The notes beneath the pieces were generated by a model, which was given only the letters and a program-made list of their open reading frames with translations, made no database searches and was not told where the DNA came from. A stretch of 64,000 bases of DNA from Robiginitalea marina (GTDB taxonomy: Bacteria; Bacteroidota; Bacteroidia; Flavobacteriales; Flavobacteriaceae), in NCBI RefSeq assembly GCF_024006985.1, contig NZ_JAMXIB010000004.1:186001-250000 (forward strand). Reading direction: 5' to 3'. The translations under genes and the position numbers were made by a program. Below are positions 439 through 9,487 of this stretch, piece after piece. Each line of letters begins with the position of its first letter. Position 1 is the stretch's first letter.

Positions 439-481
439 TAAAATTACGTCCCGTAAAACACTCATAACATGATAATTATCA
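439..481 (-). promoter_or_regulatory. nifJ promoter: FNR/CRP-like box plus -7 element
   Basis: A perfect 12-bp palindrome, TGATAATTATCA, lies at 470-481 (TGAT-N4-ATCA, the core of an FNR-type site). On the minus strand a -7-like element TAATTTTA lies at 439-446. The two centres are 33 bp apart, which would put the box near -40.5 relative to a start site around 435, the class II activator position. The leader to the nifJ ATG would be about 83 nt. The same spacing recurs at three other promoters in this region. No start site has been measured. Confidence 0.6.
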
Positions 482-573
482 GAGTATGGGAGATTTCGGG
501 GGGAAGGGGGAAAACCCAGGGTGCCCGTTCCCGAAGGTCCGCAGGCCGGCTAGGTTGGCCCGTACCGGCCAGA

Positions 574-927
574 TCATTCCCCGTACAACCAGGCTTTCTT
601 GGCCAACAATTCCTCTTCTGATTCCTGGTGGGCATCATCCGGGACACAGCAATCCACCGGGCAAACGGAGGCACACTGCGGTTCATCGTGGAACCCCTTG
701 CATTCGGTACACTTTCCGGGGACGATATAGTAGAATTCATCTGATAGCGGTTCGTTTTCCGTATCGGCGTCGACTACATCGCCCGATCCGGGCACAGTTA
801 CCGTTCCGCTTAAAGCGGTTTCATCGGAATAGGACCACTCTTCCCCTGGTTCATAGATGGCATTGTTGGGACATTCTGAGATACAGGCGTCACAATTGAT
901 ACACTCATCGGTAATAATGATAGCCAT
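574..927 (-). CDS. 2x[4Fe-4S] ferredoxin, Alvin type
   Basis: This 117-residue soluble protein has two cluster motifs. The first is compact: Cys9, Cys12, Cys15 and Cys19 followed by Pro. The second is spread out: Cys73, Cys76, Cys85 and Cys89 followed by Pro, with further cysteines at 93 and 94. The long insert between the cysteines of the second cluster is typical of Alvin-type (Allochromatium-like) bacterial ferredoxins with low-potential clusters. A roughly 45-residue acidic stretch separates the two motifs and is longer than in classical clostridial ferredoxins. It lies between nifJ and korAB and is the obvious electron carrier linking both oxidoreductases to the Rnf complex encoded nearby; that partnership is inferred from position. 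Confidence 0.93.
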   Translation of the reverse strand: MAIIITDECINCDACISECPNNAIYEPGEEWSYSDETALSGTVTVPGSGDVVDADTENEPLSDEFYYIVPGKCTECKGFHDEPQCASVCPVDCCVPDDAHQESEEELLAKKAWLYGE

Positions 928-953
928 GGTATTTGGATTTAAATGTTGTCGTC

Positions 954-961
954 TAAAAGTA
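954..961 (-). promoter_or_regulatory. Ferredoxin gene -7 element
   Basis: On the minus strand this reads TACTTTTA, a one-base variant of the Bacteroidota -7 consensus TAnnTTTG. Its centre is exactly 33 bp from the centre of the box at 985-996. The predicted transcript starts near 950, giving a leader of about 23 nt. Confidence 0.55.
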
Positions 962-984
962 AGACTCCCATTCCGCGGATTTAA

Positions 985-6764: not shown

Positions 6765-8093
6765 CTACCCTTTATTCGATTCGAGTTGCTTTGCAATGGT
6801 TTTTCCAAAGCGGATGTAGTCCAGAAGGGGTCGGTGGGAGGGGCATACATAGCTGCAGGAGCCGCATTCGATGCAGGTCATGATGTCTTCCCGGGCAGCT
6901 GCCTGGTACATCCCCTTCTCAGTCAGGTTCATCAGCAGGTGGGGTTCGAGGCCCATGGGGCAGACCTCCACGCATTCCCCGCAACGGATACAGCTGCTGG
7001 GCTTCCCACGGCTGGCCTCATCCCCCGGGATGACCAGGATGCCCGAAGTACCCTTGGTCACGGGGACATCGGTGCTTTTCAGGGCTTTGCCCATCATCGG
7101 GCCGCCGCTGACAATTTTACGGGTGCCTTCCGGCACCCCGCCCACCGCTTCCAGCAGGTCGCTGATGGGGGTTCCTATTTTTACCCAGAAATTCGAGGGG
7201 TTTTCAAGTTTTTTCCCGGTAACGGTAACCACCCGGTCCATCAGCGGCCGGTGGTGCTGCACCGCCTGGTAGATGGCAAAAACGGTCCCTACGTTGTGGA
7301 CCACCACCCCGACATCCAGCGGAAGGCCGTTCTTTGGGACTTCGCGTTTCAGCAGGGCGCGCACGAGTTGTTTTTCCCCTCCCTGGGGATACTTTACCTT
7401 CAGGGCTGCGATCTGGATACCCGGAGCTTCCCGGGTAAGTTTCCGGAACAGGTCAATGGCATCCCTTTTGTTGTTTTCAATCCCGATGATGGCCCTGCGG
7501 ACATCCAGGGCATGCATCAAAATGCGGATGCCGACCAGAATTTCTTCCGCTTTTTCCAGCATCAGCCGGTGGTCCGCCGTCAGGTAGGGCTCGCATTCCA
7601 CCCCGTTGATGATCAGGCAGTCCAGCGTTTTGTCAGCCTTGATGTTCAGTTTAACGTGGGAAGGAAACGTAGCCCCGCCCAGGCCTACAATCCCGAAATC
7701 AGAGATGCGCTGCAGGATTTCACCGGGTTCCATGGTAATCTCTTTCTTCAGCGGCAAATCTGCTGCTTCCAGGTTGGATTCATCCTTAAGGTCAGTCCGG
7801 ATGACAATGCATTGTGTCTTATAGCCTCGGGTGTCGACAATTTTGTCCAGTTTGGTGACGGTGCCGGCCACCGGGGCATGGATGTTGGAAGAGACATACC
7901 CTCCCGATTTGGCGATAACCTGCCCCGTGGCGACCTTCTCCTTCACCTCCACCACGATCTCGGCGGGGATGCCGATATGCTGCGATATGGGGACGTATAC
8001 CACCTTGGGGACCGGAAGTTTCTGGATCGGTTTCGAGGAGGTCAGTTTGTTCTCCGGAGGGTGGATGCCTCCTTTTGGAAAGGTCCTAAGCAT
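6765..8093 (-). CDS. rnfC: Rnf electron transport complex subunit RnfC (NADH-binding, Fe-S)
   Basis: This 442-residue subunit carries out the NAD(H)/FMN chemistry of the complex. It begins with the family-specific MLRTFPKGGIHPPENK, followed by a biotinyl/lipoyl-like beta barrel (about 40-90), a nucleotide/FMN-binding fold with GLGGATFPSHVKL, and a C-terminal pair of [4Fe-4S] motifs, CIRCGECVEVCP and CIECGSCSYVCP. Its start overlaps the end of rnfB by 8 bp. The length is on the short side, comparable with anaerobe-type RnfC and lacking the long C-terminal repeat tail of the proteobacterial version. Confidence 0.96.
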   Translation of the reverse strand: MLRTFPKGGIHPPENKLTSSKPIQKLPVPKVVYVPISQHIGIPAEIVVEVKEKVATGQVIAKSGGYVSSNIHAPVAGTVTKLDKIVDTRGYKTQCIVIRTDLKDESNLEAADLPLKKEITMEPGEILQRISDFGIVGLGGATFPSHVKLNIKADKTLDCLIINGVECEPYLTADHRLMLEKAEEILVGIRILMHALDVRRAIIGIENNKRDAIDLFRKLTREAPGIQIAALKVKYPQGGEKQLVRALLKREVPKNGLPLDVGVVVHNVGTVFAIYQAVQHHRPLMDRVVTVTGKKLENPSNFWVKIGTPISDLLEAVGGVPEGTRKIVSGGPMMGKALKSTDVPVTKGTSGILVIPGDEASRGKPSSCIRCGECVEVCPMGLEPHLLMNLTEKGMYQAAAREDIMTCIECGSCSYVCPSHRPLLDYIRFGKTIAKQLESNKG

Positions 8094-8976
8094 CGTTTTG
8101 CGGATTTGCCGGTTCTATGTTAAGGGTGGCCACAGGCGTCACCTCTTTGATTTTACGCGGCGGGAAATTGGTTTCAATTATGGAATGGGTCGGGCATACA
8201 TCCACGCATTTCCTGCACAGGGTGCAGAGTGCCGGATCGATATAGGCCAGGTTGTTCTCCATGTTGATGGCGTCTTTCGGACAGACGTCAAGGCATTTGG
8301 AACACCCGATGCAGGCCACCGCGCAGGCTTTTTTGGCGATCCCGCCCTTCTCCTCATTCAGGCAGCCGACAAAGATTTTCAAATCCCTTTTGTGTTTTGG
8401 GCGCATCTCGATGATGTTCCGCGGACAGGCGGTCACACACATTCCGCAGGAGGTACACTTATCGGTGATCACCACCGGGAGTCCGGTGGTTTCATCCATG
8501 TACATGGCGTCAAATTTGCAGGCCACCACACAATCGCCGTCCCCCAGGCACCCGTACTGGCAATCGGTTTCACCGCTATAGATCAGGGCAGAGATAGCGC
8601 AGGACCGCGGGCCCTGGTACTCGCTGGTTTTCGGCCGCACCTCACAACTCCCCTGGCAGCGGATTACCGCTACGGTAGGGTCTTTTTCGGCCACTTCTTT
8701 CCCCAGGGCTTCGGCCACCAAATGCATCACCGCATTCCCCCCCACAGGGCAAAACAATGCTGAAATATCTTCGGTGCCCACCAGTTTTTCCGCAAAGGAC
8801 CGGCAGCCCGGGGAGCCGCAACCCGCGCAATTGGCCCCAGGCAACAGGTCTTCCACGGTGGCGATCAGGGGGTCTTCATACACATGGAACCGCCTGGAGA
8901 CCACGTAGAGCACCAGGGCCGCCACGGTTCCCAGCAGGGCCATTAAAATCACGCTATTCAGGATGGAATCTGTCAT
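8086..8976 (-). CDS. rnfB: Rnf electron transport complex subunit RnfB (ferredoxin entry)
   Basis: This 296-residue protein has one N-terminal membrane anchor (about residues 7-26), then a Fe-S domain opening with ANCAGCGSPGCRSFA, and a C-terminal polyferredoxin region. The latter holds at least three further cysteine sets: CTSCGMCVTACP, CIGCSKCLDVCP and CTLCRKCVDVCP. An extra cysteine group (CLGDGDCVVACK) lies between. RnfB takes electrons from reduced ferredoxin. It is the second gene of the operon, 6 bp after rseC, and overlaps rnfC. Confidence 0.96.
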   Translation of the reverse strand: MTDSILNSVILMALLGTVAALVLYVVSRRFHVYEDPLIATVEDLLPGANCAGCGSPGCRSFAEKLVGTEDISALFCPVGGNAVMHLVAEALGKEVAEKDPTVAVIRCQGSCEVRPKTSEYQGPRSCAISALIYSGETDCQYGCLGDGDCVVACKFDAMYMDETTGLPVVITDKCTSCGMCVTACPRNIIEMRPKHKRDLKIFVGCLNEEKGGIAKKACAVACIGCSKCLDVCPKDAINMENNLAYIDPALCTLCRKCVDVCPTHSIIETNFPPRKIKEVTPVATLNIEPANPQNDA

Positions 8977-8982
8977 GGCTTT

Positions 8983-9411
8983 TCAAATGCGCTTTAGGGT
9001 CATCTCAAGGGTTTTCCTGAAATAGTCCTTCAGCCCGTGGAGCAACAGGTAATAGGGGATAAGGACCAGGAGGGAGAGCAGGCCCGCAGCCCATTCCGAT
9101 AACAGGAGGGAGGAGGCCAGCAAAGTACTCAGCATCAGGATAAATGGAAAAATATAGGCCCAGAATACGGCCTTGTGCCCTGAATGCTTCCGAAGGATAA
9201 CTTCCACGGGTTCGTACAGGGTAAAGCGCCCCCCCGGATCGGCCACCTCAACTTCTTTGGAAGTCGAATCGGAAACCCCGCAGGCCCCCTTGGCCTTACA
9301 GGACTCGCAGTGGAGGTTCTTATCCAGGGAAACGATGACGGAACCCCGGCTGATTTTTGTAATCACCCCGGAGTGGACGTAAACCCCTTCTTCCGCCTGT
9401 CTTGAATCCAT
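8983..9411 (-). CDS. rseC: SoxR-reducing-system/RseC family membrane protein
   Basis: This 142-residue protein belongs to the RseC/RsxC-associated family. The N-terminal part holds a cysteine cluster (HCESCKAKGACG, about residues 34-45); two membrane helices follow near residues 84-125. It is the first gene of the rnf operon, the usual place for rseC in Bacteroidota. RseC is thought to support assembly or function of Rnf-type complexes, though its chemistry is not settled. The start at 9411 is the only ATG that fits the family N-terminus. Confidence 0.9.
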   Translation of the reverse strand: MDSRQAEEGVYVHSGVITKISRGSVIVSLDKNLHCESCKAKGACGVSDSTSKEVEVADPGGRFTLYEPVEVILRKHSGHKAVFWAYIFPFILMLSTLLASSLLLSEWAAGLLSLLVLIPYYLLLHGLKDYFRKTLEMTLKRI

Positions 9412-9444
9412 GACCCTTGTTGGTTATCCATTCTGTTCGCAAGG

Positions 9445-9487
9445 TGAAACTAAGGCATTTACCACGGTCAAATCATGATATATATCA
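9445..9487 (-). promoter_or_regulatory. rseC-rnf operon promoter: FNR/CRP-like box plus -7 element
   Basis: A perfect palindrome TGATATATATCA (TGAT-N4-ATCA) lies at 9476-9487. The minus-strand octamer TAGTTTCA at 9445-9452 is a weak -7 match, but its centre is exactly 33 bp from the box centre, the same as at nifJ, ferredoxin and korA. The start would be near 9441, with a leader of about 30 nt to the rseC ATG. A weaker related sequence, TGACTGAAATCA, lies at 9506-9517. Confidence 0.6.

Follow-up and report, generated by a model that had tools for sequence, protein, structure and literature searches.

A short DNA signal at a fixed promoter distance appears to switch on low-oxygen energy genes of marine flavobacteria

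The literature searched says little about how Bacteroidota regulate their genes in response to oxygen. In Escherichia coli FNR, the cluster cysteines are C20, C23, C29 and C122, the recognition helix carries E209, S212 and R213, and the box is TTGAT-N4-ATCAA, in which the T before TGA goes with the helix serine; E. coli CRP and FNR act as class II activators from sites centred at -41.5. For HcpR2, the motif GTAACnnnnGTTAC and a regulon comprising hcp only in most Bacteroides species and Porphyromonas gingivalis were described (PMC1274295). A CRP-family protein of Flavobacteriales was hypothesised to be MalR-like (among PMC8510549, PMC12531629 and PMC1274295), and the transcription start site map of Flavobacterium psychrophilum places the sigma-A octamer TAnnTTTG at -12 to -5 (PMC9723704); these four sources were available in part. 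The words 'fnr' and 'crp' are absent from the main text of PMC9723704, and among the papers listed in the literature search none dealt with an FNR-type flavobacterial regulon, which is weak evidence of absence, most subscription papers being outside its scope. Here, a 64,000-nucleotide stretch of Robiginitalea marina (contig NZ_JAMXIB010000004.1, positions 186,001 to 250,000, forward strand; hereafter the window) was analysed, in which palindromic boxes precede the genes for pyruvate:ferredoxin oxidoreductase (PFOR, nifJ), a ferredoxin, KorAB and Rnf. The promoters are probably best explained as class II, activator-dependent promoters of the sigma-A type, belonging to a low-oxygen regulon under an FNR-like protein encoded elsewhere in the same genome (C46:48752-49447; genome G000, 3.25 Mb, 49 contigs).

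Box, octamer and spacing

An earlier note on the window had described three boxes and four -7 octamers, all of whose coordinates and letters proved correct (Table 1). In all four pairs, box and octamer lie 33.0 bp apart from centre to centre, as the note had it, corresponding to 23 nucleotides between them (gap 23). With the octamer predicted at -12 to -5, as in the available part of PMC9723704, the box centre therefore falls at -41.5; the class II position claimed before was upheld, and its centre was shifted by one base from the -40.5 first given. Likewise supported was the identification of an FNR/CRP-type box, which reads TGAYN4RTCA at the class II position and has the consensus ATGAY-N4-RTCAT in 71 korA and 59 ferredoxin promoters. 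The proposed overlap with a missing -33 element held in part: a -33 TTTG would be at or just beside the downstream edge of the box, and the korA promoters are T-rich there. That the -7 elements end in A, taken before as a sign of activator dependence, had to be given up as such, the last base being G in 87% of the 71 korA promoters; it is A in 61% of the 59 ferredoxin promoters.

For the comparison of orthologous upstream regions, a scan with KorA supplied the 80 top-ranking loci out of 272 related ones. They came mostly from Flavobacteriaceae genera or metagenome bins, a few bins being titled otherwise, and are kin, not independent samples; the counts below include the window. Boxes at gap 23 were kept at all four promoters. 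Upstream of korA, TGAYN4RTCA with an exact TAnnTTT at gap 23 was found in 69/80 loci (mean of the other 30 gaps, 1.1). The exact octamer stood at gap 23 in 42/79 loci for ferredoxin (other gaps mean 0.8; 11 exact matches at gap 22) and in 34/56 loci for nifJ, where all other gaps together gave one match. RnfB is rare (9/120 family genomes including the own genome, at E 1e-60), and the rseC-rnf promoter showed the exact geometry in 1/14 loci, or in 8/14 when one octamer mismatch was allowed (other gaps mean 0.4, largest 4). Its -7 element, described before as weak, is likewise weak in several relatives (TAGTTTCA, TAGCTTCA, TACTTTCA). Under the strict form TGATN4ATCA, with one mismatch in box and octamer, the counts were 16/56 for nifJ and 7/14 for rseC. 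Ferredoxin-korA regions without a box numbered 16/79 for TGATN4ATCA within one mismatch versus 4/79 for TGAYN4RTCA.

The spacing was then compared with chance. The window contains seven TGAYN4RTCA boxes, and over gaps 8 to 38 exact TAnnTTT matches occurred at gap 23 alone (three); with one mismatch allowed, gap 23 again came first (four matches, runner-up two). In the own genome, exact TGATN4ATCA followed by TAnnTTT fell at gap 23 in 11/18 pairs over 31 gaps (binomial p ~1e-12, for an expectation of 1 in 31), and one-mismatch matches numbered 42 at gap 23 versus 9 at gap 17, the single control gap tried. Among 21 Flavobacteriales genomes searched with TAnnTTTG, gap 23 accounted for 42/141 pairs and gap 25, the second, for 10; by group, the gap-23 peak comprised 13/33 pairs in the genus, 12/40 in the family, 15/65 in other families and 2/3 in the own genome. 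The two scans agree that gap 23 stands out and that the spacing is not random, as had been expected for TGAT-N4-ATCA with the octamer. An origin by chance or common ancestry, in which AT-rich palindromes between genes happen to fall near loosely matching -7 elements, is hardly credible. Although the octamer is indeed loose, the related genomes are not independent and the one control gap gave nine matches, a single gap of 31 is prominent in the own genome and likewise in the genus, the family and other families; the 23-nucleotide distance is constant among loci whose start-codon distances differ; the box is split in two in 12/79 loci with each spacing kept; and genomes without an FNR-like protein show no clear peak. 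A reversed-pattern control (1 vs 96) was set aside because the reversed word contains rare letters. At gap 25, 6/33 genus pairs were found (G001, G006, G008, G009), several with near-identical letters, and these are perhaps one conserved promoter with a different spacing.

The ferredoxin and korAB genes are divergent. A single common box, at gap 23 to the korA octamer with one octamer mismatch allowed, was present in 57/79 loci (window included), and its distance to the ferredoxin octamer was gap 23 in 43 and gap 22 in 14 of these. The 12 loci with two boxes, one per promoter, include Salinimicrobium, Gramella and Salegentibacter; one side alone fits in 6/79 loci, and a box was not found in the 4/79 mentioned above. 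One locus counted as common-box (L065) yet contains a second box. The palindrome between the two genes would be a class II site for two back-to-back promoters, which raises the question of whether one class II dimer serves two polymerases simultaneously or in alternation.

The FNR-like candidate regulator and its rivals

A search of the own genome with the PF13545 profile gave four matches (contigs C47, C46, C6 and C4) and none on the window contig (C44), in agreement with the earlier statement that the regulator is not encoded in the window. The FNR-like protein on C46 belongs to the CRP/FNR superfamily (PF00027, 62.2 bits; PF13545, 58.5 bits; PF00325, 31.2 bits; all above cut-off). A usp gene neighbours the gene for this protein, an exact gap-23 site carrying TACCTTTA lies between the two, and the gap-24 site belonging to cbb3-like genes is 2.5 kb away. 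No orthologue was found within the KorA loci sampled, where just a 28% partial match was obtained (L073).

Co-occurrence of gap-23 sites and the FNR-like protein was counted in 148 genomes of the order, with expectations derived from ten control gaps. Orthologues were accepted at 37% identity or more with the N-terminus aligned, and absence was defined as no match at E 1e-20. The 43 genomes with an orthologue contained 126 sites versus 8.6 expected (14.7-fold), the 80 genomes without any match 11 versus 7.3 (1.5-fold), the 19 genomes of family f5 32 versus 4.9, and the remaining six 11 versus 1.1. Outside the family of the window (reduced f16 genomes excluded), there were 45 sites versus 3.8 in 25 genomes with the protein and 8 versus 6.5 in 60 without it. 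Within the family, a TAnnTTTG gap-23 site lay at most 6 kb from the FNR-like gene in 6/18 genomes (~1% expected).

The cysteines C7, C10, C56 and C109 are invariant in 30/30 aligned orthologues. When the protein is aligned to a solved FNR chain, cysteines of that chain pair with C7, C10 and C109, an asparagine (N16) takes the place of C29, and C56 falls into the beta-roll part. Of the 19 f5 orthologues, six were read; these have none of the four cysteines and keep the helix GTATESAIR. That the four are present or missing together suggests a single cluster whose third ligand has moved, and their joint loss gives indirect support to the view that they function together. In these f5 proteins (L179-L184), the cluster may have been lost with the box still being read; another relative (G084) has CxxCx4C and C109 and lacks C56. 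Classification as an E. coli-type FNR was rejected. The model NF008365 scored 100.6 bits against a cut-off of 228, though it was the best of 13 NCBIfam models; equivalents of C20, C23 and C122 are present, C29 is missing and C56 is found in 30/30; the helix TESCIR keeps E and R with I at the S212 position; and the box is ATGAY-N4-RTCAT instead of TTGAT-N4-ATCAA.

A receiver-CRP fusion is encoded on contig C47 (Table 1). If it were the main regulator, phosphorylated by the adjoining PAS-type histidine kinase, the boxes would respond to oxygen or redox state through a two-component system, and we consider this unlikely. Its recognition helix shares the E-x3-R pattern (TETAIR vs TESCIR), in 4/13 family genomes its gene has gap-23 sites no more than 6 kb away, and one genome (G051) with the fusion and no other FNR-like match has six gap-23 sites, with sites ahead of a usp gene and of radical-SAM (hemN-like), ccoN-like and cytochrome-like genes. 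The fusion occurs, however, in 16/148 genomes (E 1e-50) as compared with 66/148 for gap-23 sites, on which ground it was rejected as the sole regulator. Among the 18 family genomes that have the FNR-like protein, the fusion makes little difference to the number of sites (4.8 with it, n=10; 4.1 without it, n=8). It also appears to have a box of its own, TGACYTARGTCA, which was found at gap 23 in 4/5 genomes carrying the fusion in its close form (53-55% identity to the own-genome protein, or that protein) versus 1/143 others, and not at all at this gap in the own genome. Across the 148 genomes, TGACYTARGTCA followed by TAnnTTT fell at gap 23 in 11/30 cases, ten of them in the four close-form genomes, a partly circular test, the word having first been noticed in three of these genomes and G131 being independent. 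The fusion is a plausible second reader of similar boxes. In G140, a FixL-like PAS histidine kinase (L232:1065-3863; PAS, HisKA and HATPase_c by Pfam) adjoins the fusion, as if FixJ and FixK had been fused, and an Hsp20-like gene with a gap-23 box comes next. The words TGACCTAGGTCA and TGACTTAAGTCA recur around receiver-CRP genes (L229:4579, L230:5962, L231:6039 and 8516), where the adjacent genes look YtxH-like, Hsp20-like and baeRF-like.

Improbable to a greater degree is that the box is read by one of two other CRP-family proteins (L018 or L019) or serves mainly as a repressor site. The L018 helix, REVISR, resembles E. coli FNR in its V-x-S-R end, and neither gene was covered by the co-occurrence count; the base ahead of TGA is nevertheless A, G or C in the promoters aligned, being T in none of the 71 korA promoters and A in 90% of the 59 ferredoxin promoters, and -41.5 is an activator position.

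Control by the FNR-like protein, which is preferred here, also has points against it. The exact geometry is lacking at nifJ in 22/56 loci and, even with one octamer mismatch allowed, at rseC-rnf in 6/14. The protein has no cysteine at the C29 position, and C56 is put forward in its stead on the basis of sequence. The site excess in f5, whose six proteins read lack the cysteines, means that the boxes do not strictly need these, and G051 has kept its sites with the fusion as the sole FNR-like match. The co-occurrence is partly confounded with descent, given the kinship of the genomes and the mostly small size of those lacking the protein, and it was counted for the FNR-like protein, not for L018 or L019.

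According to the preferred explanation, the FNR-like protein would most likely bind TGAY-N4-RTCA centred at -41.5 and contact RNA polymerase, substituting for a good -33 element. It would turn on nifJ, korAB and the ferredoxin gene, whose products would yield reduced ferredoxin from pyruvate and 2-oxoacid oxidation, together with Rnf, which would re-oxidise it; NiFe hydrogenase, nitrous oxide reductase and cbb3 oxidase, encoded elsewhere in the genome, would be activated along with them. Oxygen would probably be sensed via a [4Fe-4S] cluster on C7, C10, C56 and C109. The sequences themselves show the boxes, their spacing and conservation, the make-up of the regulon, the co-occurrence with the protein and the shared gain or loss of the four cysteines; from these we infer binding, activation, the cluster and the oxygen response. 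There is perhaps an even chance that Flavobacteriales possess a distinct oxygen sensor of FNR type, with the third cluster cysteine moved from the N-terminal loop to the beta-roll (C-x2-C-x45-C-x52-C), that drives an order-wide class II ATGAY-N4-RTCAT regulon and in which a single dimer activates two outward-facing polymerases at ferredoxin-korAB, an arrangement kept in most loci and replaced by two boxes elsewhere.

Regulon content and features of the window

The earlier proposal of one regulon joining PFOR, ferredoxin, KorAB and Rnf was borne out, and the regulon is much wider than these four promoters. In the own genome, exact gap-23 sites lie upstream of a NiFe hydrogenase small subunit gene (TIGR00391; hypD follows further on, same strand), a cytochrome-like lipoprotein gene, which nosZ (TIGR04246) follows in the same orientation, three universal-stress-like genes, of which Pfam confirmed one, and further genes including nifJ. 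Genes resembling ccoS-ccoN of a cbb3 oxidase have a gap-24 site ahead of them. The hydrogenase, hypD, nosZ, rnfB, rnfC and ferredoxin genes were identified by NCBIfam. Of the 42 one-mismatch gap-23 sites, 41 were checked for position and 12 lay inside open reading frames (ORFs) of at least 180 aa, in keeping with the nine matches at control gap 17. In marine flavobacteria, nosZ, hydrogenase and cbb3 oxidase would come under one switch with the low-potential metabolism of ferredoxin (PFOR, KorAB, Rnf).

Two further genes with a box at gap 23 were noticed. A 955-aa lipoprotein-like gene (L123:4416-7357) has a perfect box at this gap from TACTTTTG, and a surface protein is unexpected in a low-oxygen regulon. 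A baeRF-type release-factor-like gene (PF18845; L195:1501-2769) has the box TGATTCAGGTCA, and a similar gene is found near the receiver-CRP gene in G099.

Table 1. Promoter elements and genes of the window, and two putative regulators encoded outside it
Feature	Sequence	Position	Strand	Remarks
nifJ regulator box (predicted)	TGATAATTATCA	470-481		exact match; TAnnTTT at gap 23
nifJ -7 octamer	TAATTTTA	439-446	-	predicted +1 near 434; -12 to -5 after PMC9723704 (available in part)
nifJ (PFOR), 5' part, continues beyond window		1-352	-	ORF from ATG at 352
Ferredoxin/korAB shared regulator box (predicted)	TGATATAAGTCA (TGACTTATATCA on other strand)	985-996		octamer at gap 23 on both sides
Ferredoxin -7 octamer	TACTTTTA	954-961	-	predicted +1 near 949
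korAB -7 octamer	TATATTTA	1020-1027	+	predicted +1 near 1032
4Fe-4S dicluster ferredoxin gene		574-927	-	NF033683, 96.6 bits (cut-off 86)
korA, 2-oxoacid:acceptor oxidoreductase alpha		1069-2928	+	TIGR03710, 636 bits (cut-off 483)
korB, 2-oxoacid:acceptor oxidoreductase beta		2931-3941	+	TIGR02177, 235 bits, below cut-off 262
rseC-rnf regulator box (predicted)	TGATATATATCA	9476-9487		exact match
rseC-rnf weak -7 octamer	TAGTTTCA	9445-9452	-	predicted +1 near 9440
rseC/mucC, first gene ahead of rnf genes		8983-9411	-	PF04246, 73.8 bits (cut-off 24.4)
rnfB		8086-8976	-	TIGR01944, 120 bits (cut-off 68.7)
rnfC		6765-8093	-	TIGR01945, 576 bits (cut-off 246)
Remaining rnf operon, four ORFs		3965-6762 (5752-6762, 5153-5755, 4542-5147, 3965-4540)	-	ORF list
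FNR-like protein, candidate regulator, 231 aa		G000:C46:48752-49447		outside window
Receiver-CRP fusion, 356 aa		G000:C47:47164-48231		PF00072, PF00027, PF13545

The name nifJ was taken from the earlier note and the letters. The four remaining ORFs of the rnf operon, in the order listed, we take from gene order to be rnfD, rnfG, rnfE and rnfA. Within the second of these, a perfect TGATCTTTATCA at 5431-5442, which has no TAnnTTT at gap 23, is probably a chance match.

Comparison with known systems

On this evidence, the activator regulon is taken to be real and larger than first described, a known type in a new form, with the oxygen signal and the protein-DNA contact predicted. Together, the box, its geometry, the target list and a candidate regulator whose cluster motif is a variant make up one testable proposal.

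Like E. coli FNR, the flavobacterial protein has a CxxC in its N-terminal part and a cysteine that pairs in the alignment with the ligand in the beta-roll of the solved FNR, and as in the class II promoters of the E. coli regulon, the site is at -41.5, with hydrogenase and anaerobic respiration among the target types. Unlike E. coli FNR, it lacks a C29 equivalent, has C56 and would read ATGAY-N4-RTCAT rather than TTGAT-N4-ATCAA; the flavobacterial regulon further differs in the -7 element TAnnTTTG and in having PFOR, KorAB and Rnf as targets. The rhizobial FixL-FixJ-FixK system offers a parallel in the low-oxygen control of cbb3 oxidase by a CRP-family protein, and one relative has the FixL-like kinase next to a receiver-CRP fusion (L232) described above. 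In contrast to FixJ and FixK, the flavobacterial receiver and CRP domains are in one protein, and the box that it apparently reads, TGACYTARGTCA, is a different one. HcpR2 of Bacteroides and Porphyromonas is likewise an FNR-like regulator from the same phylum (PMC1274295, available in part); as the regulator here it was rejected, as the motif given there, GTAACnnnnGTTAC, is not found in the flavobacterial boxes, which read TGAYN4RTCA. The regulon is finally like the low-oxygen response of F. psychrophilum, in which, according to the available part of PMC9723704, cbb3 oxidase is induced and TAnnTTTG lies at -12 to -5.

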